IMG/VR virus record: IMGVR_UViG_3300027985_000278
Location: 1-21,041 of that record
Source: a virus
Direction: 5' to 3' (one strand)
Length of the DNA stretch: 21,041 bases
The notes under the pieces are model-generated. The model searched no databases and was not told the origin of the DNA. It saw nothing but the letters and a program-made list of their open reading frames with translations. The stretch's first letter is position 1, and each line of letters starts with the position of its first letter. Below, in pieces: positions 4,464 through 18,447 of the stretch. The translations under genes and the position numbers were made by a program.

Positions 4464-6118
4464 TGCAAAAGGACATTCTCGATCTTCGAGACCTGTCGAA
4501 TGCGGAAGTCATGGACGCAATCCGCAATGAAGCCAGCATGGAATACCAGAACCGTATTCCCGAGGTTTCGCAGTCTTCCATCAAGGAAGCCGTTGACAAC
4601 CTCATGAACTACCGTCCCGCATGGAACGAGTTCATCAACACGTTCGTCAACCGCATTGGTCAGGTCTACGCTCGCACGCAGAGTTGGACGAACCCGTTCG
4701 CTGTGTACAAGAAGGGTCTCATGACCTTCGGTGACACCATTGAGGAATACATGGCGGATATGCTCGAAGCTCATGAGTACAGCGCCGACCGTGACTACGG
4801 GGAAAAGGTTCTGTTCGGGCAGGAACGTCCCGCTGTGGAGGTCAACTTCCACAAGGTCAACCGTGAGAACTTCTACAAGATCACGGTCAACGAGAAGCTG
4901 CTCCGTAGGGCTTTCCTGAATGAGGGTGGGCTTTCGCAGCTCATTGCTCAGATCATGGACGCGCCACTCAAGTCGGATCAGTGGGATGAGTTCCTGCTCA
5001 TGACCAACCTGTTCCGTGAGTACGAGAGCAACGGCGGCTTCTACAAGATGCAGGTTCCGGATTTCTCGGAACTCAACACCGGCGAGTACGAGGCACGTTC
5101 CGCGCTCAAGACAATCAAGAGCATGGCAATGAAGCTTCCGTACCTTTCTCGGGAGTTCAACGCTGCGCACATGCCTGTTGCGGCACAGCCCACTGAACTC
5201 ACGCTGATCGGCACGCCGAACTTCCTTGCCAGCATTGACGTGGACGGTCTCGCGCCCATCTTCCACATCGACAAGGCCGACACGTCATGGGATCGCACCA
5301 TTGCACTTCCGGATCAGTATTTCGGAATCGATGGGTGTCAGGGCATTCTGACCACCAAGGATTTCTTCATGGTGTTCGATACCCTGCTGGAAAACCGGAA
5401 TCAGCCGAACCCTGCCGGGCTGTACGAAAACTTCTTCCTGCACCACTGGCAGATCATTTCGGCAAGCCGGTTCGTTCCCGCGATCATGCTCACGTCCGAA
5501 ATGCAAACCATCACTCTCCGAGAGGACTTCACCGTGTCGAGCATTGCTGACACCGTTGTTTCCGACGCTGACGGTAACGTTGTCACCACCGTCAACCGGG
5601 GTGCCATTTACGCGCTCGATACGGCAGTCACCACCGATCCGGAGGGTGGCAACGTGGGTGTCGCGTACGCTGTTACCGGCAACGAATCCCACCACACGTA
5701 CATCACCAACAACGGTGTCCTGTACGTTGGCCAGGACGAGGCAGCCGATAGCATCACGGTCACGGCGATCACCACGTTCATCGATCCCACGAACCCGCGT
5801 CTCGATGGCATCACGTCTGACGTTGTGCTCACCGTGGCAGGCGACGTGCAGGCCATGTGGCCGGTGTACGGCACTCTCGCAGGAATCAAGATCGCCGGTG
5901 TCTCTGTGGACGCTGTTGATCCCGAAACCACCACGTACACGCTGGAACTGGCTACCGGTACCGTTGTGACCAAGGCCAAGGTGCTTGTGGACGTGGTTGG
6001 TTCTGCCAACGTCACCAAGACCGTCACGGCCACTGAGACTGGCTACGTTGTGGTTGTGTCGGTTGATCCCGGTGAGGGTGACGCCGTTGACTACACGGTC
6101 ACGGTGACTGTCCCCTGA
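4463..6118 (+). CDS. Major capsid protein with two C-terminal Ig-like domains
   Basis: A 551-residue protein in the capsid position. Residues 1 to about 345 are the probable HK97-fold shell domain, beginning MQKDILDLRDLSNAEVMDAI and rich in Phe/Tyr/Asn. Residues about 347-462 look like a BIG2-type domain (SIADTVVSDADGNVVTTVNR, then a TNNGVLYVGQDEAADSITVT segment), as in phi29 gp8. A further ~90 residues of Thr/Val-rich beta strands (about 463-551, ending DYTVTVTVP) look like a second Ig-like domain. This makes the protein about 100 residues longer than phi29 gp8 (448). The ribosome binding site GAGGAAAG precedes ATG 4463. A terminator follows, so the capsid message can be ended separately. 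Confidence 0.88.
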   Translation: MQKDILDLRDLSNAEVMDAIRNEASMEYQNRIPEVSQSSIKEAVDNLMNYRPAWNEFINTFVNRIGQVYARTQSWTNPFAVYKKGLMTFGDTIEEYMADMLEAHEYSADRDYGEKVLFGQERPAVEVNFHKVNRENFYKITVNEKLLRRAFLNEGGLSQLIAQIMDAPLKSDQWDEFLLMTNLFREYESNGGFYKMQVPDFSELNTGEYEARSALKTIKSMAMKLPYLSREFNAAHMPVAAQPTELTLIGTPNFLASIDVDGLAPIFHIDKADTSWDRTIALPDQYFGIDGCQGILTTKDFFMVFDTLLENRNQPNPAGLYENFFLHHWQIISASRFVPAIMLTSEMQTITLREDFTVSSIADTVVSDADGNVVTTVNRGAIYALDTAVTTDPEGGNVGVAYAVTGNESHHTYITNNGVLYVGQDEAADSITVTAITTFIDPTNPRLDGITSDVVLTVAGDVQAMWPVYGTLAGIKIAGVSVDAVDPETTTYTLELATGTVVTKAKVLVDVVGSANVTKTVTATETGYVVVVSVDPGEGDAVDYTVTVTVP

Positions 6119-6172
6119 CCCTCACCCGTTCTAGCAGCCGGGATGGGTGGGTAGGCTGAGCTATCAGCCGAA

Positions 6173-6215
6173 GAATGCCCCGTGTCGCTTCTGAGGGGTG
6201 CGACACGGGGCATTC
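6173..6215 (+). terminator. Hairpin terminator after the capsid gene
   Basis: A perfect 16-bp stem, GAATGCCCCGTGTCGC (6173-6188) and GCGACACGGGGCATTC (6200-6215), has an 11-base loop. It lies between the capsid gene and the endolysin gene, followed within 6 bases by a promoter-like -10. The 54 bases between the capsid stop and this hairpin hold nothing recognisable. Confidence 0.85.
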
Positions 6216-6217
6216 CC

Positions 6218-6226
6218 CTGTACACT
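6218..6226 (+). promoter_or_regulatory. Promoter -10 element for the endolysin/tail operon
   Basis: CTGTACACT (-10 TACACT at 6221-6226) follows the terminator stem directly, in the same relation seen at 4131 and 12071. No convincing -35 is seen at 16-18 bases. Here transcription would start near 6233 and give a short leader containing the ribosome binding site GAAAGGAAAAGGAA before ATG 6255, so this copy is not leaderless. Confidence 0.5.
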
Positions 6227-6254
6227 GTGATTATCCGTCTGAAAGGAAAAGGAA

Positions 6255-6947
6255 ATGGCTGACGCAAGACTCGCACAACACCTGATGCTTTCGCTTCTCG
6301 GAGTGAAATACAAGCTCGGTGCCGAGAACAATCCCGCTGATTATGATCTGACCAGCGAAGTGCCCGATTTCACTGATTGTTCCGAATCTCTGCAAATGAT
6401 CATGAGTGATCTTGGGCATCCTGAGTTCGGTGACGGTTCGTGGCTCCAATGGGCAAAGTGCAATAAGTGGAGCGGAAAGAATGTTGATTGGCCTTTCATG
6501 GGAATCGGCGTCCTGTTCAACAATCCCGCACACAATAACAAGGTTGGGCATATCTTTGCCAACGCTGGCAAGAATCGCCACGGAAAAACTATGATCTTCG
6601 AGTCCCGAGGCAATGCCTACGGTGGAACTCGACTCACCCGCATCTACGATATGATGCACAACCGTGGTTCTGCGGCTCTCGGCATTTATGAGCCGCTCGT
6701 TATCGATGGAGAGCCTGATTATCTGTACGCATGGCGCGGGAAGGATATCAGCCCGACCACGGCCAAGGTACAAACCGTTCTCCGTAAGCTCGGTTATAGT
6801 GGAGGCAACTTCAAGAAAATCACTGTTGATGGTGATTTCGGTCCTCTCACGCAGGCTGCCGTACGGGCATATCAGAAAGCCCGTGGCATGTTCCCTGATG
6901 GCGCTGTGACTGGTGATGTGTGGAATAACATGAAGGAGTTGCTGTGA
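6255..6947 (+). CDS. Endolysin: NlpC/P60-like peptidase with peptidoglycan-binding domain
   Basis: A 230-residue, two-domain protein. Residues 1 to about 150 resemble the N-terminal peptidase domain of actinophage LysA proteins: DCSE with catalytic Cys42, DGSWLQW (60-66), VGHI with His99 and a FESRGNAYGG segment near Glu116. Residues about 166-230 are a PG_binding_1 domain, with VQTVLRKLGY, VDGDFGPLTQAAVRAYQ and a DGAVTGDVW end. It should cleave stem peptides of the host wall. There is no signal peptide, so a holin is needed. It sits unusually between capsid and tail genes, away from the holin candidates at 15271, so a virion-associated role is an alternative. Excellent ribosome binding site; the stop overlaps the next GTG. 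Confidence 0.83.
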   Translation: MADARLAQHLMLSLLGVKYKLGAENNPADYDLTSEVPDFTDCSESLQMIMSDLGHPEFGDGSWLQWAKCNKWSGKNVDWPFMGIGVLFNNPAHNNKVGHIFANAGKNRHGKTMIFESRGNAYGGTRLTRIYDMMHNRGSAALGIYEPLVIDGEPDYLYAWRGKDISPTTAKVQTVLRKLGYSGGNFKKITVDGDFGPLTQAAVRAYQKARGMFPDGAVTGDVWNNMKELL

Positions 6948-9091
6948 GTAATCCTCCGTACGGTGAAGCCATCGAGCACGACGCGGGACAAGGTTTCAAC
7001 TATGCCGTGTGGTCAGCCGGTTCGCATGTTTCCTTGCACAATGTGCGCTGGAACAGTGACTACCGTGACATTGTGTACTTCGACACACAGCAGAAGCTTG
7101 ACGATTACCTTGCCACAGTGACAGGACCACAGTTCACTACTGTGTCGTACTGCAAGGCCAACGAACCGGTGAAGCTCGATCTACCATTCAATGCTTGCTA
7201 CATGTACAACTACCTCCGTGTGTACAACCCTGCACAGCCCATCACAAATGACGTACCACGCACGTTCTACTACTTCATTACCAACGTGGTGTACCTTTCT
7301 CCGAACACCACGCAGTTGACGTTGCAGTTGGACGTGTGGCAGACCTTCTCACGGTTCATCACGTTCGGAAAGTGCTACATCGAGCGCGGGCATATCGGGA
7401 TCGCCAACAAGAATCAGTTCGCTGATCATGGCAGGGAATACCTTACGGTTCCCGAAGGTTTCGACGTTGGCAATGAATACGTGATCAGTGCAGCCTACGA
7501 ATACACGCTCGCCAAGAAAGACACGGCAAGCGTTCTCGTAGCCTCAACAACCGACCTGAACATTGATCCCGGAACGGTAGATTCACCAAACCTGCTGTCC
7601 GCGTCGGGATCAACATTTGAAGGTCTGCCTAACGGTATGGCAATGTACTTGTTCCAAGACGTGCAGGACTTCCGAACCGCAATGGTACAAATGGTCAACA
7701 CACCGTGGATGACACAAGGTATTATGAGCATCACCTTGCTTCCCGGCGACTTCTGGAACAACTTCACCAACAACACCACCGTGGGAACCGTAACCTGCCG
7801 TGATGTGAGCAGCGACCCTGGACCAATCTCAAAGAGAATCACACTAGATGATCCGAGAGAAAAGTTCGGAATCCCTGAACGATACTCACGGCTTGAAAAG
7901 TTCAAGGTGTTCCCATACGCTGCCATTGAGATCACCACGTACAACAGCGCACCACTCCTGTTGAAACCCGAGTGTATCGCCACCGATCTTCTGTACACGC
8001 AGATCGCATATCACCTTGCACCACCCAATCCGCGCATTGTGATCTACCCTCTCAAGTACAACGGTAGGCAATACCAGTCAGACGCGGAAGCACTTGCCGA
8101 TATGAAGAATGATGAAGGGTTCTCGGCTGTCAATGACCGTTCAGAGTTCCTTGATTTCACTACAGGCATTCATGACTTCCCAATGTTCAGTCTGGTGAAC
8201 AACGGGTACTTGTCCTACATGGCAGCCAATGCCAACAGGATCGCTTACGCATATCAGAATGCTGAATGGACGCAGCAGCGTGCAATGGCGGGAGTGCAGC
8301 TAGGGTACAATCAAGCAACAATGGCAGCCAATACAGCACTCTGGCAATCCGGCAACCAGCAGAACCTTGCATTCCAGCAAACTGATTACATGAACAACAA
8401 CCGGATGGCACAGGCTGCTCTCGGTGGAATGCGTAACTTCATCGGTGGGTTCAACGGTATCGGTGGCGTCGGGGGAGCCGTTGTACAGGCTGGAAGCGGG
8501 CTTGCCGATATGGGCATGGGCCTTGCCTCTGCGGGCATGGACAGCGCAACGCAAATGGCAATCACCGGGGCACAGGCCGCCAACATGGCACAGAATGCTA
8601 GCCTTGCCTACAACAACTCCCTGTATGCGCGAGACACGAACCGTGAATACGGCAACTTCGCTGCACACGGTGACTACGCCAACGAAATCGCAGGAATCAA
8701 CGCAAGGGTGCAGGACGCCAAGCTCATTCAACCCACAACCTCCGGGCAGATGGGTGGTGAAGCGTTCAACATTGCAGCATTCAAGTGGGGAATCTTCACC
8801 AAGTTCAAGACCCTACAGCCTGCTGTTATGGCAACCATTGGCGAATACTGGCTCCGATACGGTTACGCAATCAACCGGTTCGGCCAGATGCCACCCACAT
8901 TCGGAGTCATGACCAAGTTCACATACTGGAAACTCCGTGAAACCTACATCACTTCCGCTGCCTGTCCGGAGGGTTTCAAGCAGGCCATTCGAGGCATCTT
9001 TGAAAAGGGTGTCACCGTGTGGACAAACCCGAACGAAATGGGTAGCATCGATATGGCGGATAACGAGCCATTGACAGGGGTAACGCTGTGA
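6944..9091 (+). CDS. Tail knob protein (phi29 gp9-like)
   Basis: A 715-residue protein (phi29 gp9: 599). The N-terminal half is rich in Tyr, Asn and Phe and carries features typical of gp9-type distal tail tubes: a FTTVSYCKAN segment, YNYLRVYNPAQP, FYYFITNVVYLSPNTTQLTL and an LDVWQTF motif. Residues about 490-552 are Gly/Ala/Met-rich and weakly hydrophobic; in phi29 the corresponding long loops line the tube and form a membrane pore for DNA entry. The GTG start overlaps the endolysin stop and has AAGGAG 6 bases upstream. The gene leads the block knob, connector, lower collar, as in phi29. Confidence 0.87.
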   Translation: MSNPPYGEAIEHDAGQGFNYAVWSAGSHVSLHNVRWNSDYRDIVYFDTQQKLDDYLATVTGPQFTTVSYCKANEPVKLDLPFNACYMYNYLRVYNPAQPITNDVPRTFYYFITNVVYLSPNTTQLTLQLDVWQTFSRFITFGKCYIERGHIGIANKNQFADHGREYLTVPEGFDVGNEYVISAAYEYTLAKKDTASVLVASTTDLNIDPGTVDSPNLLSASGSTFEGLPNGMAMYLFQDVQDFRTAMVQMVNTPWMTQGIMSITLLPGDFWNNFTNNTTVGTVTCRDVSSDPGPISKRITLDDPREKFGIPERYSRLEKFKVFPYAAIEITTYNSAPLLLKPECIATDLLYTQIAYHLAPPNPRIVIYPLKYNGRQYQSDAEALADMKNDEGFSAVNDRSEFLDFTTGIHDFPMFSLVNNGYLSYMAANANRIAYAYQNAEWTQQRAMAGVQLGYNQATMAANTALWQSGNQQNLAFQQTDYMNNNRMAQAALGGMRNFIGGFNGIGGVGGAVVQAGSGLADMGMGLASAGMDSATQMAITGAQAANMAQNASLAYNNSLYARDTNREYGNFAAHGDYANEIAGINARVQDAKLIQPTTSGQMGGEAFNIAAFKWGIFTKFKTLQPAVMATIGEYWLRYGYAINRFGQMPPTFGVMTKFTYWKLRETYITSAACPEGFKQAIRGIFEKGVTVWTNPNEMGSIDMADNEPLTGVTL

Positions 9092-10084: not shown

Positions 10085-10879
10085 ATGGCAACCTTCACTA
10101 TCACGGTGCAAGATTTGTGGAATGCCAACTTTGACTTCGGACTCACACCCGAAGACTATCCGATTCTCCGTGAGGAACTACGAGGTTTCATCGATGATGA
10201 AAAGCATTGGCAGTTCAATCACGTCACCGATGATGCAAGCGGTCAACACTTCTTCGGACTCAATCGGCTCATCCTTGACAACTACTGGCATCAGGAAATC
10301 GGATTTGAAACTGAGGATATGTTCAGGTTCTACCTGAACAAAAAGATGCGGCAGATCATGCCTTACTACAACCAACTGTTGCATTCGGAAACCTACCAGT
10401 TCGATCCCTTCCAGACACAGGACAGCACGCACACATCGGCAACCACCAACGCCGAGAACGCAAGTTCTCATGATGCGCAATCCACCAGTGGAGAGACAAC
10501 CACGGACGCCAAGGGACGCTTGGTTTCGTCCAACTTCCCGCAAATGCTCTTGTCCAATGACAAGGATTACGCGAGTGCTGGCTCCGACAACAACACTCAA
10601 AGCACGGGCAGCACTACTACACAGGGAACTGGTGATTCCACCAGACAACTGAATATGACAGGCAACATCACGTCGCACGTAACCGGCTCGCAAGGCCACA
10701 CGGCAGCGTTGCTCATGCAATACCGACGTTCATTCCTGAACGTTGGCATGATGATTGTGAATGAACTGCAACCGCTGTTCATGATGGTTCTGGACAACAA
10801 CGATTCCTACATGAATGAAAGGAACGAACAAAATGGTCCGTTCGGGCTCGGGTATCCGTATTTTTTCCCCACTCTCTGA
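10085..10879 (+). CDS. Lower collar protein (phi29 gp11-like)
   Basis: A 264-residue protein (phi29 gp11: 293), joining portal to tail knob. Typical gp11 features are seen: an N-terminal helical part with WHQEIGFETEDMFRFYLN and PYYNQL, a long Ser/Thr/Asn/Gln-rich linker (about 110-195) containing FPQMLLSNDKDYASAG, and a C-terminal helix with LLMQYRRSFLNVGMMIVNEL. The ribosome binding site AAAGGA is 8 bases before ATG 10085. The end overlaps the next gene by 47 bases, in another frame. Confidence 0.85.
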   Translation: MATFTITVQDLWNANFDFGLTPEDYPILREELRGFIDDEKHWQFNHVTDDASGQHFFGLNRLILDNYWHQEIGFETEDMFRFYLNKKMRQIMPYYNQLLHSETYQFDPFQTQDSTHTSATTNAENASSHDAQSTSGETTTDAKGRLVSSNFPQMLLSNDKDYASAGSDNNTQSTGSTTTQGTGDSTRQLNMTGNITSHVTGSQGHTAALLMQYRRSFLNVGMMIVNELQPLFMMVLDNNDSYMNERNEQNGPFGLGYPYFFPTL

Positions 10880-12017
10880 CATTCAGCCGTTCAGTCACCG
10901 GGACGGTGACACGATGCTCACTGTCATTCGCGCAATGCGACAGAAGATCAGTGAAATCATTGCCGGACACAACACGCTGAACAACCACATGCGAACCGTT
11001 GAGAACGGTCTCGAAGACAAGTTCAACGGTCTCTACGAATCCGCTGCAACCAACGTTGAAGTTTTCACACAGCAGATCGATGACAAGTTCAGCGAAGTCA
11101 CCGGAAACATTGACACCGAGTTTGCTACCAAGAGTAGTGAACTCGATCAACAGTTCACTGATCTTGCCTCAACACAGCAAACCGCATTCGACACAAAGAA
11201 TGCGGAAGTAGACGCGACAATCACAGCTTTTGAAGGAACCGTGAACGCTGCGCTCACCACCATGCAGGAGAGTGCTGACGCAGCGAGTGCGTCGGCAGGC
11301 ACGGCTGCCACGCAGGCCACCAATGCCGCTACGTCCGCTGCCGCTGCTGCCGCTGCTGCCGAAGATGTTGCGAGCTTGACGGATAGTGGCGTTGCCGCTC
11401 TCGTTGACACTCCCAATAGCGAAACCCGCCAATCCATTATGTCCTACATTCAGAGTGCCGGGATTGTGTGGAGTCACGGTGAAATCACTCCGAATGGTGA
11501 TGCCAACTTCCCGAGTCTCATGATTGATGATGTTCCTCTGCTGGAATATCTCGCTTCGCAACTCACAACGCGCGGTCGCATGATCAAGACTAGCCAGCAG
11601 GCAATCACGTCTGGTGTTTGGGCGAAGGTGATTGGCTTTGCTGCCGCAACTGGTGTGCACGGCGTCACAGTGAATGAAGCCGCAGGAACGTTCACCATTC
11701 AGCAGGCAGGCTACTACGATGTGACGTTCTACCAGCGTTGGGAGCATTACGGCTCATCATCGTACGTTCGCCGAATGGGCGCAATCACCAAGAATGGCTT
11801 GCAACCGGCTGCCGATAACTCCAACACTATCGCAGGAAACGCTGCCACGCATGAGGGTTGGTACGCGGCATCGAGTGTTGCACAAGACGTTTATCTGTCC
11901 GCAGGTGACGTTATTAGTGGATGGGTTTACACGGAAACTGACACCACTTTCAACAATGTCACCACATCCCCATATCCTCCGTGGACCTACCTTGCAATCA
12001 CCAAGCGTCCTGATTGA
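10833..12017 (+). CDS. Tail fibre / appendage with C1q-like head domain
   Basis: A 394-residue protein. Residues about 40-180 form a long coiled-coil stalk with a run of eight alanines near residue 170. Residues about 240-394 look like a trimeric C1q/TNF-type jelly roll: GYYDVTFYQRW, a VTVNEAAGTFTIQQ strand pair, LSAGDVISGWVYTET and a C-terminal WTYLAITKR. Such domains bind host surface ligands. I prefer ATG 10833 to ATG 10815 because GAAAGGAACG lies 8 bases before 10833 and nothing lies before 10815. It occupies the slot of phi29 gp12 or gp8.5 without obvious similarity to either. A terminator follows. Confidence 0.78.
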   Translation: MVRSGSGIRIFSPLSDIQPFSHRDGDTMLTVIRAMRQKISEIIAGHNTLNNHMRTVENGLEDKFNGLYESAATNVEVFTQQIDDKFSEVTGNIDTEFATKSSELDQQFTDLASTQQTAFDTKNAEVDATITAFEGTVNAALTTMQESADAASASAGTAATQATNAATSAAAAAAAAEDVASLTDSGVAALVDTPNSETRQSIMSYIQSAGIVWSHGEITPNGDANFPSLMIDDVPLLEYLASQLTTRGRMIKTSQQAITSGVWAKVIGFAAATGVHGVTVNEAAGTFTIQQAGYYDVTFYQRWEHYGSSSYVRRMGAITKNGLQPAADNSNTIAGNAATHEGWYAASSVAQDVYLSAGDVISGWVYTETDTTFNNVTTSPYPPWTYLAITKRPD

Positions 12018-12082: not shown

Positions 12083-14107
12083 ATGATTTGGGATGATGCT
12101 GCTAAACTCCTTGCGCTCAAGACTCTAGGCACGTTGGAATCCAACCTCCAATACGATGCTATCAACATGTCCGATCCCATTACCGTTGGTTGCTTCCAAC
12201 TCTCGGGAGTACGGGCAGCCAACCTCATTCAGCGAATCGGAGCATCCGATCCTGGGTCACTTGACATTATTGAGGAAACTCTCGCAAGTGATCTTGCGGA
12301 ATACACCGTATACGAACCCACAGCGGTTCCGGTGAATCTTGCCTACGGAAACGTCAAGGCACACTACATGGACGACACCGAAGGCTTTACACCACTCCCT
12401 GACCGTATTGACACCCTCGTTGCCAAAATCAACTCGATGGGCGACATTTTCGGTGCAGTAGAAGTGAACTCTGACGATGATCGTGGAAATCCCGGACAAT
12501 ACATTCTCACTCACCTGCAAGCCTTGAATGCTAACTGGTCATTCAGCCTTGGCGCTTACTCCAATAGCCTCTACTACAGAAGTGACCTGTATGAGGTATT
12601 GGACGTTAAGAAGGTGACTATTGCAGGAGACAAGCGTGTCATCGACTACCACATGCAACAAATCTCCACTGGTTATGGCTTCCATTATCTTCTCACACAC
12701 TTCATTTCCAACCAAGACGGGGACAATGAAGACATTCGCGTAAAGGAAGCAAAGAACTGCGCAGACTACGCAAAGGGCATTCCTCGTTCCATTCTGGCCG
12801 GAGACTTCAACACTTGGGACACGTCTTCTGGTAGTCCCAAATACATTCTCAAGAATCGCGGCGGGTTGATTGGCTTGCAGAAACGAACTACACCTGTCAA
12901 TACAGATGTGGGAAGTCTGCATGGTGACGATACCGGGCATTGGATTGACGATATCCTCACAAAAACCAAGCAAACAGTTGTATCAGCAGCGCTCGTGCCG
13001 ACTGATGGCGCATCCGACCATTACGGCTTCATCAAGGCCATTGTGGACTTTGACGGAGAGCCCTCTCCTGATTCAGACACGGTAGAGTTTTGGGATAACC
13101 GGATGCTCACAGCAACCGAAGCAACAAGCCTAAAGCCTATCCTGTTCGATCACCAGCAGGTACAGAACCTGCAAATGCTGCAAGACTTCGACAGGTACAT
13201 GAGTGTTGCCATTTCCCTAGGAATGAACCCTGACGACAACACCAAGGCAGCAATCTTCTTCCTCATGATGTACCACCAGTCACCCAAGGCAGCCAAGCGT
13301 ACACTTTCCGTGGCAGGACCAAACTCAACGCTCACCCGGCTTTACAACAACTGCCTGAACAACGCTAGGTTTGGATTGTCGAAAGCACGTTACAAGGAAG
13401 CCAAGACAATCATTTCAGGTGAGGATAGCTCCGGTGTTGACCTTGGTGGGGACGTTGGCGAACCCACCGGAGAGGAACCCGGCGGAGACCCTTCCTATGG
13501 AAACGTGGAAGCATCGTCATATGTAACCGCTGTAGGATCACAGCTATTTATCACCAGTGATCTTGGAAGCAGAACAGTGGCAATGCCTACTGCGGGCGGA
13601 AACTGGATTATTAGTGGAGAAGACGGTAACGTTGACAGCCCGGATGCTGGCGACCCTGAACCCGGTGATCTTGGCGATACCCCCGGAGAGCGCGTACTAG
13701 CATGGGTGATCGCGCATATTGGTGACTGGAAATATTCGCAAGGCTCCGGGCGGTTGAATCCTTTCGAGTCCGGTTATACGGATTGCTCTGGCTGTATGTG
13801 GCTGGCATACAAGAAGGTTCTAGGCATCGATGTGGGATCGTGGACAGGTGCGCAATACAAGAAGGGTCGCTTGGTTACCACAAAACGCTCACAGATCGCT
13901 TCCGGTGAAGGTTTGCTTCCCGGTGATTTGATCTTCTACCACGCCTACTATTCTGCAACGCACCGGTTCAACCATGTGGAAATGTACGTTGACTCCACAC
14001 ACACCATTGGGCAAGTGGGAAGCGACGCACCCGGACCAAATCTGCACCCCACCCACCGTTACCTTGATTGGGGCAAGCTCGACGTGATGGCAAGACGGTA
14101 CGTGTAA
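12083..14107 (+). CDS. Tail lysin: lysozyme-like domain with inserted EEP phosphoesterase, plus NlpC/P60 peptidase
   Basis: A 674-residue protein in the position of phi29 gp13, the tail-tip wall hydrolase. Residues 1-75 look like a phage lysozyme-type domain (candidate acid Glu19 in LGTLESNLQYDAIN; DPITVGCFQLSGVRAANLIQ). Residues about 80-325 match the endonuclease/exonuclease/phosphatase (DNase I-like) fold: Asn90, GAVEVN (Glu127), LYYRSD, LLTHF (His206), LAGDFNTW (Asp241, Asn243), WIDDILT (Asp289-290) and GASDHYGF (Asp312, His313). Residues about 333-440 return to helices that fit the second half of the lysozyme-like domain, so the EEP domain appears inserted. A Gly/Asp/Pro linker follows, then an NlpC/P60 peptidase (about 535-674) with Cys568 in DCSG and His631 in FNHVEMYV. 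It likely opens the envelope during DNA entry; the EEP substrate is unknown. Confidence 0.82.
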   Translation: MIWDDAAKLLALKTLGTLESNLQYDAINMSDPITVGCFQLSGVRAANLIQRIGASDPGSLDIIEETLASDLAEYTVYEPTAVPVNLAYGNVKAHYMDDTEGFTPLPDRIDTLVAKINSMGDIFGAVEVNSDDDRGNPGQYILTHLQALNANWSFSLGAYSNSLYYRSDLYEVLDVKKVTIAGDKRVIDYHMQQISTGYGFHYLLTHFISNQDGDNEDIRVKEAKNCADYAKGIPRSILAGDFNTWDTSSGSPKYILKNRGGLIGLQKRTTPVNTDVGSLHGDDTGHWIDDILTKTKQTVVSAALVPTDGASDHYGFIKAIVDFDGEPSPDSDTVEFWDNRMLTATEATSLKPILFDHQQVQNLQMLQDFDRYMSVAISLGMNPDDNTKAAIFFLMMYHQSPKAAKRTLSVAGPNSTLTRLYNNCLNNARFGLSKARYKEAKTIISGEDSSGVDLGGDVGEPTGEEPGGDPSYGNVEASSYVTAVGSQLFITSDLGSRTVAMPTAGGNWIISGEDGNVDSPDAGDPEPGDLGDTPGERVLAWVIAHIGDWKYSQGSGRLNPFESGYTDCSGCMWLAYKKVLGIDVGSWTGAQYKKGRLVTTKRSQIASGEGLLPGDLIFYHAYYSATHRFNHVEMYVDSTHTIGQVGSDAPGPNLHPTHRYLDWGKLDVMARRYV

Positions 14108-14262
14108 TGTTCTGTGGCTCACGACACCCACGCTTCTACCATTGCATATGTCATTTGGAGCCTGACCATGAAGGCTTGTGCCAAGCCTATTACGGCAATC
14201 GGTTGCGCGAATGGAAAAAGCCTGTAGAATCAGGGTATGGCTGCAAGCAACAAGTTCCGTGA
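14107..14262 (+). CDS. Small Cys/His-rich (zinc-finger-like) protein
   Basis: A 51-residue protein whose ATG overlaps the tail lysin stop by one base (TAATG), so it is probably translationally coupled. It carries C3, H7, then HCICHLEPDHEGLC (residues 13-26), a spacing of Cys and His suited to a zinc knuckle, and a basic C-terminal part. Its end overlaps the ATPase start by 26 bases and contains the ATPase promoter. Function unknown; small zinc-binding proteins with CxxxxGHxGxC-like patterns are common in actinobacterial phages. Confidence 0.65.
   Translation: MFCGSRHPRFYHCICHLEPDHEGLCQAYYGNRLREWKKPVESGYGCKQQVP
14203..14230 (+). promoter_or_regulatory. Leaderless promoter of the packaging ATPase gene
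   Basis: A -35-like TTGCGC (14203-14208) and a -10 TAGAAT (14225-14230) are separated by 16 bases. CTG precedes the -10, and six bases separate it from ATG 14237. It lies inside the preceding zinc-finger-like gene. AGGG is only one base from the ATG, too close to act as a Shine-Dalgarno sequence. Confidence 0.6.
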
Positions 14263-15274
14263 AGGGACAGCAACGTTCTACCGTTACGGGCCGATTCTTT
14301 CCCGTAACGCAGTATTCAATGTTGTCATTGGTCCCCGTGGTGATGGAAAAACCTATGGCGCTAAGGAACATGCCATCAAGAAAGCCATCAAAGCCGGTGA
14401 GCAGTTCATTCTGCTACGCCGCTACAAGACGGAACTCAACACCCGCACGTCATTTTTTGCTGACATTGCAGATAACATTGATGATCAGTTTCCTGATCAC
14501 ACTTTCCGTGTAAACGGTGGCGAAGCCCAAATGAAGCGTCCCGGTGCGGACAAGTGGGAAACCATCGGCTACTTTGTTGCGCTTTCCAATAGCCAGCAGA
14601 AGAAGTCCGTTTCCTATGCCAAGGTAACAACGATCATTTTCGATGAGTTCATCATCGACAAGGGTGCCTTGCACTACCTGCCAAACGAGGTTCGCGCACT
14701 CATGGACTTCTACATCACCGTAGATCGCTACCAAGAGCGAACCCGTGTGTTTATGATTTCCAACACAGTCTCGATCATGAACCCCTACTTCATCGAGTGG
14801 GACATTCGCCCGAAGAAGAATCAGGAATGGATCATTCGCGGAGACGGCGTAATCTGTGTTCATCTGATTCGTGACCATGCATTCGCTGCGGAAGTCCGCC
14901 AGACCCGCATTGGGCAGTTCATCGATAACACCGAGTACGCTGACTATGCTGTTGATGGCGTCTTCTTGGACAACCATATGGAAATGGTTAAGCAAAAGAC
15001 ACCCGAAGCCAAATATTACGCAACCATCGAAACTGAAACTGGAATCTTCTCTTGGTGGATTGATCGGATCACGGGGCAGCACTTTGTTTCGGAAAAGCGG
15101 CCCAAGAATGAATGGATATGGACATTGCTGGCAGAAAAAATGACAGCAGACAAGGTGTTCATGCTTCCGAATGACAAGTCCCTTCAAGTGCTGCGTTCGG
15201 CGTTCTCCCGTGGTAGGCTGTTTTTCAGCAGCGCACAAGCTCGCAACGCATTCGTAGGAGTGATGAAACGATGA
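14237..15274 (+). CDS. DNA packaging ATPase (phi29 gp16-like)
   Basis: A 345-residue protein (phi29 gp16: 332). Walker A is GPRGDGKT (32-39) and Walker B is TIIFDEF with Asp136 and Glu137. Arg/Lys-rich segments RRYKTEL (61-67) and the following YITVDRYQERTRVFMISN segment, which fits the sensor region after Walker B, are typical of FtsK/HerA-type packaging motors. The C-terminal third resembles the RNase H-like vestigial domain region of gp16. It would pump DNA into the prohead through the gp10 portal. In phi29 this requires a packaging RNA; a candidate region here is 3974-4090. Start by leaderless promoter; the stop overlaps the next ATG (ATGA). Confidence 0.9.
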   Translation: MAASNKFREGTATFYRYGPILSRNAVFNVVIGPRGDGKTYGAKEHAIKKAIKAGEQFILLRRYKTELNTRTSFFADIADNIDDQFPDHTFRVNGGEAQMKRPGADKWETIGYFVALSNSQQKKSVSYAKVTTIIFDEFIIDKGALHYLPNEVRALMDFYITVDRYQERTRVFMISNTVSIMNPYFIEWDIRPKKNQEWIIRGDGVICVHLIRDHAFAAEVRQTRIGQFIDNTEYADYAVDGVFLDNHMEMVKQKTPEAKYYATIETETGIFSWWIDRITGQHFVSEKRPKNEWIWTLLAEKMTADKVFMLPNDKSLQVLRSAFSRGRLFFSSAQARNAFVGVMKR

Positions 15275-15773: not shown

Positions 15774-17435
15774 ATGGGCATCAAAGGAAGCAAGGCATTC
15801 GTCAACGAACAAATCGAACGTGACAATGCCAAAGAATACGAAACGTTCGTCACACACGCACAACTCACCGAAGCCATTGCAGGAGTAGAAGCCGGAACAC
15901 CGGACAACCTCGCAACCGTCGCCACCACCGGCGACTACGCAGACCTCACCGGAACACCCACGCTCGCCCCTGTAGCCACCAGCGGCTCCTACGACGACCT
16001 GACAGGCACACCCGAGCTTGGCAGCGCCGCAGGAGCCGATTCTGGCGCGTTCGCGACCGCTGCACAGGGTGCCAAGGCCGACACCGCGCTACAACCCGGA
16101 GGACTCGCCACGGTCGCCACCACCGGAGCCTACACAGACCTCACAGGCAAACCCACGCTCGCCACCGTGGCAGGCACAGGAGCCTACAGCGACCTCGTAG
16201 GACGCCCGGCACTCGGAACGGCTGCCGCCACATCGGCGGACAGCTACGCCACAGCGGCACAGGGCATCAAGGCCGACAGCGCCGTGCAGCCCGGATCACT
16301 CGCTGCGGTCGCAACCTCCGGAGCGTATTCCAGCCTTTCCGGAAAGCCCACTCTCGGCACGGCAGCAGCTACAGCGATCACTGACTATGCCACAGCGGCA
16401 CAGGGCACAAAGGCAGATGAAGCACTTCCCCGTGACGACACCACCGACTCGTATCCTCGCGTCTATGTGGTAGCCACCGACGGCGAACAGGTAATGACCA
16501 CTGTTCGTGCGTCAGCAGCCGCAGCGGACTCCATTGTTTCCCGCGATTCGTCCGGACAGGTATACGTTCCCGTAACACCCACGGCAGACGGACATAGCGC
16601 ATCAAAGAAGTACGTTGACGACACAGCGGCAGCCGTAGCAGCAGGCATTTCCCCCGGCGTTATCGTGCTGCAAACTGGTGATGAGGTTCCAGCGGAAACA
16701 CCCGTTGGAACCGTAATCGTATGGTACACACCTGTCGGACCTCTGACACCAGTTGTCTCCGCTGACGGCTACCAAATCAACACGGCCACTAGTGAAGGTG
16801 CTGTTACCACCGGGGCAGCAATCCCTGTTGGTGACATTATTCTTTGTTGCTACGGTCAAGGCACAGGAACCGGAACTCATGGTTCACAGGCAATCACGCT
16901 AAGTGCGGGTGCCGTGGATTCATGGCGGAACTCCAGTGCAGGCAGAGCTTCCACCGTTGAATGTGGTGTCATTTGGGGTAAGGTTACAACGGAAATCCCA
17001 GCAGGTGCAACAGTCACATTCGCTAGTCCGGGAAACACGAACTTCCGAGTGCTGTCAACCGTTATCAGTCTGCATAACGTGTCCACAGCAACACCTGACG
17101 CAACTTCTGGTGATGATGCCGATGGAGTTGCTTACAATGTTTCGGCAGGAGCTAATGCTTCGGCATCAACGCTTACAGCCTCCACTGATGCAGCAACCAC
17201 GGTTCCTGACACCATTGTGTTCGGCATTTTCGCTCATAGTTCAGCGCAAGTTTACTCGCTGAACTCGGGAACGGAAGTGTACAAGATTGTGACAGCGGCA
17301 GGATCGTCGGACCGTGCACTTCTCGTTGGATACAAGGTTGTGACAGCTACCGGTGTACAGTCAATGACTGCCACGGCTGCCAGTTCCACAGGTATTTGCG
17401 GTTGTGTGATTGCGCTGCCGATCACGATTGGATAG
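15774..17435 (+). CDS. Repeat-containing tail fibre / appendage protein
   Basis: A 553-residue protein with a strong ribosome binding site (AGGAG, 5 bases before ATG 15774). Residues about 45-230 are a repeat array: short units of the form VATTGxYxDLTGKPTL alternate with longer units of the form GTAAATSxxxYATAAQGxKADxALQPG. Such repeats are common in fibre shafts and in trimeric appendages. Residues about 235-300 hold a conserved fibre linker (ASKKYVDDTAAA). Residues about 320-553 are a Thr/Ser/Ala-rich beta domain, probably the receptor-binding head. Codon use changes between the shaft (strongly C/A-ending) and the head (more T-ending), suggesting a mosaic gene. Confidence 0.8.
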   Translation: MGIKGSKAFVNEQIERDNAKEYETFVTHAQLTEAIAGVEAGTPDNLATVATTGDYADLTGTPTLAPVATSGSYDDLTGTPELGSAAGADSGAFATAAQGAKADTALQPGGLATVATTGAYTDLTGKPTLATVAGTGAYSDLVGRPALGTAAATSADSYATAAQGIKADSAVQPGSLAAVATSGAYSSLSGKPTLGTAAATAITDYATAAQGTKADEALPRDDTTDSYPRVYVVATDGEQVMTTVRASAAAADSIVSRDSSGQVYVPVTPTADGHSASKKYVDDTAAAVAAGISPGVIVLQTGDEVPAETPVGTVIVWYTPVGPLTPVVSADGYQINTATSEGAVTTGAAIPVGDIILCCYGQGTGTGTHGSQAITLSAGAVDSWRNSSAGRASTVECGVIWGKVTTEIPAGATVTFASPGNTNFRVLSTVISLHNVSTATPDATSGDDADGVAYNVSAGANASASTLTASTDAATTVPDTIVFGIFAHSSAQVYSLNSGTEVYKIVTAAGSSDRALLVGYKVVTATGVQSMTATAASSTGICGCVIALPITIG

Positions 17436-17439
17436 CAAC

Positions 17440-18447
17440 ATGCTTCTCGCGACCATGGACCACCTGAAAGCCCGCGACGATACCGGACTGTTCGACGCCG
17501 ATCTGGAACAAGTCCTCACACCGTATGGGCTGATCGATGCTGACCTCGTACAAGTAGTTGTTTCCAACGATGTTGAACCTCCCCCGGTCGCATGGATCAA
17601 GCCCGTCATTGGAGCAGCAACCACGAACGATAGCTCAACCACATGGGCAGACTTGGAAGCACTTGTTGGCGACCTTCTGATCCGACGCTCCTACCTCGGC
17701 GGAAACCACCCAGCGTCTTACACCAGTACGGATATGGTGCTTGACGTTGCACAGGATATTTGGTCCTGTTGGTCATTCAAACCGGACTATTCCGGTGGCC
17801 AGATCACCTTCAACCACTCGTCCACATTGCAGAATGCTTTCTCTGCATTCTTGGACACAATACCATCCGGGCACAAGACAACCATCGTTGCATGGCACGA
17901 ACCGGAACAGGAAATCAACGCAGGATACTTCACCCTTGCAGAATGGGGACTCCTGCAAAACACGCTCGCAGACATAATCCACGCCAAAGGCAGGCCCGAA
18001 CTCACACTCGGCATTTGCATTATGGGACCGTGGACATTCAACGTGTCCTCAGCATTCCACACATGGGCATGGGACACATGCCTTGACTGGTCAAAGGTGG
18101 ATTACGTAGGCATCGACCCCTACCAAGGCTCGGGATCAACCACCAGTCTCGAAACACAACTCACAACACCGTCCGGTAGTATGCCATCAATGATGCAGAA
18201 GATCCTCACATGGGGACGTCCTTGGATGGTGATGGAATACAACACGAACAACTCCACCGTAACCAATCAGGCAACCTACTTCACGGAAGCCTACGCCTGG
18301 TTCAAGACGTGGAACCAAGCACACCCTGCAACACCATGCGCCGCAGCAATGGTGTTCAACGTCACGCTCTCGGGAGACAACACCCGATTCCTGACCGGTG
18401 AGTCCGCAGCCGCAGTCGCGGCAACCAACGCGGACAGTAAGGTCTAG
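17440..18447 (+). CDS. Glycoside hydrolase-like protein (clan A TIM barrel), putative depolymerase
   Basis: A 335-residue protein. Three motifs fit a retaining clan A glycoside hydrolase barrel: AWHEPE (151-156) as the acid/base segment with Glu154, VDYVGIDPYQG (220-230) as a barrel strand, and RPWMVMEYN (260-268) with Glu266 as candidate nucleophile. The early part (about residues 10-45) is acidic and may join it to the fibre. No signal peptide is seen, and as the last late gene, directly after the fibre, it is likely a virion-associated enzyme that degrades a host surface polysaccharide. I use ATG 17440, with weak GGA upstream. The GH family cannot be named with confidence; GH26-like is a guess. 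Confidence 0.72.
   Translation: MLLATMDHLKARDDTGLFDADLEQVLTPYGLIDADLVQVVVSNDVEPPPVAWIKPVIGAATTNDSSTTWADLEALVGDLLIRRSYLGGNHPASYTSTDMVLDVAQDIWSCWSFKPDYSGGQITFNHSSTLQNAFSAFLDTIPSGHKTTIVAWHEPEQEINAGYFTLAEWGLLQNTLADIIHAKGRPELTLGICIMGPWTFNVSSAFHTWAWDTCLDWSKVDYVGIDPYQGSGSTTSLETQLTTPSGSMPSMMQKILTWGRPWMVMEYNTNNSTVTNQATYFTEAYAWFKTWNQAHPATPCAAAMVFNVTLSGDNTRFLTGESAAAVAATNADSKV

Follow-up and report, generated by a model that had tools for sequence, protein, structure and literature searches.

The window analysed here, a 21,041-nucleotide stretch of viral DNA (IMG/VR record IMGVR_UViG_3300027985_000278), represents most or the whole of a phi29-like podovirus genome, in which genes for a family B DNA polymerase, a gp8-type head protein, a gp9-type knob, a gp10-type portal, a gp11-type collar and a gp16-type ATPase are present. 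All window features described below lie on the plus strand. An open reading frame at positions 12083-14107 encodes a 674-residue tail lysin that is homologous to the antireceptor of Actinomyces phage Av-1 and to the lysins of Glutamicibacter phage Voltaire and of Bifidobacterium phages. This gene is flanked by a putative appendage or tail fibre gene (10815-12017), assigned by its position and a weakly BclA_C-like C-terminus, and by the gene for a gp16-type DNA encapsidation ATPase (14237-15274; PF05894, E 2.9e-62), and thus occupies the tail-lysin slot of related actinophages. The nearest packaging ATPases are those of Av-1 (47% identity) and of Arthrobacter phages (46%), from which it follows that the host is probably an actinomycete; the relatives of the podovirus are phages of Actinomycetota. 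A portal-based search returned no near kin of the phage, and Rfam detected no phi29-type packaging RNA in the window.

Three further genes of the window are noteworthy. A putative endolysin gene (6255-6947; NlpC-like by eye, followed by PG_binding_1) is located between the head and knob genes and not near the genome end. A fibre-like protein containing repeats of the type ATVATTGAYTDLTGKPTL is encoded at 15774-17435. The gene at 17410-18447 specifies a 345-residue protein that gave no Pfam, PHROG or PDB sequence match; its WHEPE and DYVGIDPY motifs suggest a glycosidase-like barrel, and its position corresponds to that of a gene annotated as an esterase in Arthrobacter phage Mendel.

The preliminary description had likened the 674-residue protein to the phi29 tail lysin gp13, and both gene order and domain content bear this out. 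In phi29 and in the actinophage counterparts (the Av-1 antireceptor, VOLT_19 of Voltaire and the lysins of Bifidobacterium phages BadAztec, BadAargau and BD811P), as in the window, the lysin precedes a gp16-type ATPase and combines an N-terminal lysozyme-superfamily domain with a C-terminal peptidase; the full phi29 order of appendage, lysin and gp16-type ATPase is also matched. The window lysin shares 27-31% identity with its relatives over the common part. Its C-terminal domain (residues 533-674, 13679-14104) is a NlpC/P60 cysteine peptidase, as had been proposed, and scored 35.1 bits against PF00877 (E 1.3e-8; cut-off 23), with Cys-568 and His-631 invariant among the NlpC-type relatives. 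By contrast, phi29 gp13 and many soil relatives carry an M23-like peptidase. Exchange between the NlpC/P60 and M23-like types (HxxxD ... HLHxE) was noted within the lysin family in tail lysins L022, L024, L030, L031, L038, L041, L043, L044, L046 and L047. A gene of a Eubacteriales metagenome-assembled genome (L056:9353-10687) encodes a 444-residue lysozyme-like plus NlpC protein that is related to the same family.

Inspection of the lysin sequence reveals that the predicted glycosidase domain is divided. Its first half (residues 1-73, 12083-12301), which contains the invariant Glu-19 (12137-12139), corresponds to positions 1-73 of the family profile with a score of 77 bits. The profile match resumes at model position 78 from residue ∼334 (274 bits); the second half of the domain proper (residues 334-445, 13082-13417) accounts for 131 bits against profile positions 78-189, and its helices were modelled with pLDDT values of 60-80 when the whole protein was predicted. 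A linker with a small conserved beta element, delineated by alignment and secondary structure, follows at residues 446-532 (13418-13678). Shuffled versions of the two halves reached at most 5.3 and 7.8 bits against the family profile, and the score of the whole lysin rose from 353 to 369 bits when residues 76-330 were spliced out. The proposal that residues on either side of the insert form one split lysozyme-like domain was therefore sound: the halves are collinear on a single profile, and the uninterrupted domain of a relative (L020), modelled with AlphaFold2 from 34 sequences, is a single compact fold with a pLDDT of 96.

Structural comparison of the L020 domain model returned GH46 chitosanases as the best match (e.g. 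PDB 7c6c; Z 12.9, 186 of 200 residues, 3.6 Å, 8% identity), although helical folds can reach a Z of 13 by chance. Lytic transglycosylases and T4-type lysozymes came next, and Foldseek alone ranked the same chitosanases at the top (E 0.077, probability 0.99). A conserved glutamate near residue 19 is also shared with the GH46 enzymes; of the catalytic acid pair of that family, no Asp partner for the invariant Glu-19 was established. The glycosidase profile found chance matches only among PDB sequences, weak PF18013 matches were obtained for five of seven lysin relatives, and phi29 gp13 was absent among the structural matches listed for L020, an absence that is uninformative. Despite the chance Z values attainable by helical folds, the consistency of the match list and the invariant Glu-19 make it likely that the modelled domain is a lysozyme-superfamily enzyme. 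The original lysozyme-like label thus holds at the level of the superfamily, within which the nearest fold is that of the GH46 chitosanases; the substrate of the lysin domain is presumably peptidoglycan.

The interruption itself, residues 74-333 (12302-13081), is absent from all relatives found. The lysins of Av-1, Voltaire and the Bifidobacterium phages, at 413-442 residues, align to residues 1-∼74 and ∼331-674 of the window protein and lack the intervening stretch of 260 residues (five of five named phages). When viral contigs were scanned with an alignment of the first 208 residues of the relatives, 41 loci were recovered, 38 of them with complete open reading frames of metagenomic or reference origin (a few being the same reference phages as those named); none of the 38, all 411-468 residues long, contains the insert. 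In the L020 model the insertion point maps to a loop between helices 64-72 and 78-81, which indicates that the nesting of the insert within the modelled glycosidase domain is real. Close homologues of the insert were not found in the phages, plasmids, viral contigs and genome contigs searched. Matches to Mycobacteriophage minor tail proteins (E 1-8) were rejected, as Pfam identified no endonuclease/exonuclease/phosphatase (EEP) domain in them.

That the insert occurs on a single contig and is without close relatives might point to a contig that is chimeric or misassembled, or to a selfish element, for instance an intein. This reading is barely credible. The insert is in frame at both ends, falls in a domain loop and costs the profile only ∼4 positions, and its codon usage and GC content, which match those of the rest of the phage, speak against a chimera. 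Nor is an EEP among the domain types of inteins and homing endonucleases. The in-frame loop insertion and the matching composition led us to reject all three possibilities, namely an intein, a homing element and an assembly chimera.

The insert resembles the EEP (DNase I-like) superfamily according to two profiles. PF03372 matched the isolated insert with 24.3 bits (E 3.2e-5), 0.2 below the curated cut-off of 24.5, and an independent profile, for which 17 EEPs encoded in Bacillota genomes were used, gave 24.2 bits, compared with a maximum of 8.0 among 3,000 shuffles and -2.4 for the reversed sequence. A profile of non-ExoIII EEPs scored 17.6 bits, and the score with an ExoIII-type profile, representing the ExoIII/AP-endonuclease branch, was -0.3 bits, inside the shuffled range. 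The preliminary description had placed an EEP domain at residues ∼80-325; the assignment is upheld by these scores, albeit with the Pfam match marginally under its cut-off, and the bounds are better set at 74-333. The open reading frame, its coordinates and the residues named there (Asn-90, Glu-127, His-206, Gly-240-Asp-241-Phe-242-Asn-243 and Ser-311-Asp-312-His-313, together with Glu-19, Cys-568 and His-631) were exact.

The catalytic and metal-binding set of the superfamily (N, E, H, D-x-N, D, D-H) is complete and in order within the insert. Invariant or near-invariant EEP columns are occupied by Glu-127, Arg-185, His-206, Gly-240, Asp-241, Asn-243, Asp-289, Ser-311, Asp-312 and His-313. 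Among these, Glu-127 (12461-12463) corresponds to the metal-binding glutamate and His-206 (12698-12700) to the catalytic histidine, both in invariant columns; Asp-241 and Asn-243, likewise invariant, belong to the GDFN motif (residues 240-243; D241-N243 at 12803-12811), Asp-289 (12947-12949) to the conserved I-D motif with its invariant Asp, and Asp-312 and His-313 (13016-13021) to the SDH motif (residues 311-313), again in invariant columns. Asn-90 (12350-12352) aligns with the metal-site Asn conserved among EEPs, namely four from phage fibres and nine of the ten bacterial ones, an alignment that appears once the phage fibre EEPs are included. In an AlphaFold2 model of the whole lysin (seven sequences), the insert was predicted with pLDDT values mostly below 35, reflecting its status as a singleton lacking close homologues; the four-layer alpha/beta sandwich typical of EEPs is accordingly a prediction from sequence. 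Judged by its sequence, the insert is an EEP-like domain of the non-ExoIII type. It shares with that part of PF03372 the set and order of catalytic residues as well as profile similarity but, unlike the free-standing or terminal members of the superfamily, it is a highly divergent singleton nested in another enzyme domain.

Reuse of enzyme folds for binding is frequent, and the insert departs from bacterial EEPs in having Asp-183 in place of Glu and Ser-160 in place of Gly. The fold might thus have been kept as a catalytically idle module, serving as an adhesin for a phosphate polymer. We regard this as quite improbable, because all metal-binding and catalytic residues are kept despite strong divergence, and such retention suggests selection for activity.

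To place the insert among phage proteins, 43 related phage records were searched with PF03372, which yielded one other case, IMGVR_UViG_3300005293_000059. Here the EEP domain, with all motifs present and a score of 26.1 bits against the independent EEP profile, forms the C-terminal half of the product of a 350-codon gene (L058:1021-2073; contig 6106-7158) that lies between the head and knob genes, the slot of the endolysin in the window. The N-terminal half weakly resembles proteins annotated in Microbacterium phages as lysin A (E 0.007; one contig), and the protein is putatively an EEP fused to a second wall lysin; the phage's own tail lysin is without the insert. Aligned directly with each other, the two phage EEPs gave no meaningful result, and they were bridged by intermediate bacterial sequences.

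When bacterial EEP sequences served as queries against the phage collection, EEP domains came to light in tail fibres. Such a domain is present in 17 records, including Citrobacter CR44b, CR8 and CrRp3, Proteus PM 116, Cronobacter vB_CtuP_B1 and Salmonella Se-J, with Pfam E values of 2.4e-9 to 4.5e-16 for four of the records. In Escherichia BEK2/3, Citrobacter CR44b and CR8, Cronobacter vB_CtuP_B1 and others it constitutes the C-terminal, receptor-facing half of the fibre, after Tail_spike_N or T7-fibre N-termini, and the database record of the CR44b gp17 fibre notes mass-spectrometric detection. Fibre genes ending in an EEP domain are located at L106:1951-3468 (Escherichia BEK2), L107:2508-3971 (Cronobacter vB_CtuP_B1) and L109:763-2223 (Citrobacter CR44b). 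These fibres resemble the window lysin in presenting an EEP domain on a tail protein that faces the cell surface. They differ in that the domain is C-terminal, peptidoglycan hydrolases are lacking and the hosts are Gram-negative. Tail fibres that end in an EEP may form a class of surface-polymer enzymes that has escaped recognition; we found no papers discussing virion-borne EEP domains, even though deposited genomes carry them. Such domains are already in databases and are not new, so the earlier suggestion of a new kind of entry enzyme was overstated. What does appear to be new is an EEP nested inside a tail lysozyme or glycosidase domain, an arrangement found nowhere else.

The nature of the EEP substrate was considered in the light of these comparisons. 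The superfamily includes DNase I and many nucleases, and with the catalytic residues all present, the nested domain could be a DNase I-like nuclease that degrades nucleic acid, whether host or extracellular, as the phage enters; biofilm DNA or DNA released at puncture would be examples. We consider this unlikely. The insert is unlike the ExoIII branch, and EEPs on other virions take the place of domains that bind or cut surface glycans. Moreover, a nuclease at this site would sit where the phage's own DNA exits and would presumably endanger that genome. An envelope substrate is favoured over nucleic acid since EEP domains repeatedly adjoin wall lysins or replace surface-glycan domains. Of the two targets first suggested, an envelope phosphodiester and host DNA, the former is thus the likelier, to judge by the EEPs at fibre tips and the putative wall lysin.

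Non-ExoIII EEPs include neutral sphingomyelinases, and a tail lysin works near the membrane. A phospholipase C- or sphingomyelinase-like domain that breaks host membrane phospholipids, and so helps the tail knob to penetrate, is nevertheless quite unlikely: no membrane-inserting hairpin or lipid-specific motif was identified in the insert, and EEP-bearing fibres contact the cell surface and not the inner membrane. The inositol 5-phosphatases are distinguished by C-D-R in place of S-D-H, and this signature is absent near the end of the insert, where SDH occurs at residues 311-313 instead. Actinobacterial inositol phospholipids, which had been put forward as an attractive substrate, consequently find no support, and nothing in the insert points to lipids.

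The best explanation, and to us a moderately probable one, is that the tail-tip lysin of a phi29-like phage, with an actinomycete as its probable host, has gained, by loop insertion, an EEP phosphodiesterase whose target is an envelope polymer joined by phosphodiester bonds. Under this explanation, the domain would have been acquired in a surface loop of the glycosidase domain, and we infer that it is carried on the virion and catalytically active. During entry, the glycosidase (Glu-19) would cleave the glycan strands, leaving the stem peptides to the NlpC/P60 domain (Cys-568/His-631). The metal-dependent EEP (Glu-127, His-206, Asp-241, Asn-243, Asp-289, Asp-312 and His-313, with Asn-90 likely) would hydrolyse the phosphodiester-linked polymer and thereby clear a path for the tail knob. 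Phosphodiester-linked glycopolymers are common in actinomycete walls, and a wall- or lipo-teichoic-acid-like glycopolymer is a candidate substrate. More tentatively, and with slightly more doubt than belief, we suggest that one tail-tip protein unites three envelope-cutting enzymes, the metal-dependent EEP being housed in the glycan-cutting domain, such that both peptidoglycan and a phosphate polymer of the wall would be cleaved at a single site as the phage enters.

The pairing of a phosphodiesterase with a tail peptidase has a precedent in enterococcal phages, the tail modules of which contain GDPD domains that are always accompanied by a tail endopeptidase and have been proposed to cut teichoic acid (PMC10194240). 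The partnership of a phosphodiesterase with a tail peptidoglycan hydrolase is common to both systems. The enterococcal GDPD, however, is a TIM-barrel that occurs as a separate protein or a baseplate fusion, and is not nested as the EEP of the window lysin is.

To our knowledge, the entry enzymes of phages of Gram-positive bacteria comprise glycosidases, amidases and peptidases, besides a small number of differently folded phosphodiesterases that act on teichoic acid. With an EEP housed in the tail glycosidase, this repertoire would gain a fold, and the presence of EEP domains on unrelated phage tails would have a testable explanation. Should the domain prove to cut phosphate polymers of the wall, it would be of use as a reagent in work on the cell walls of actinomycetes.
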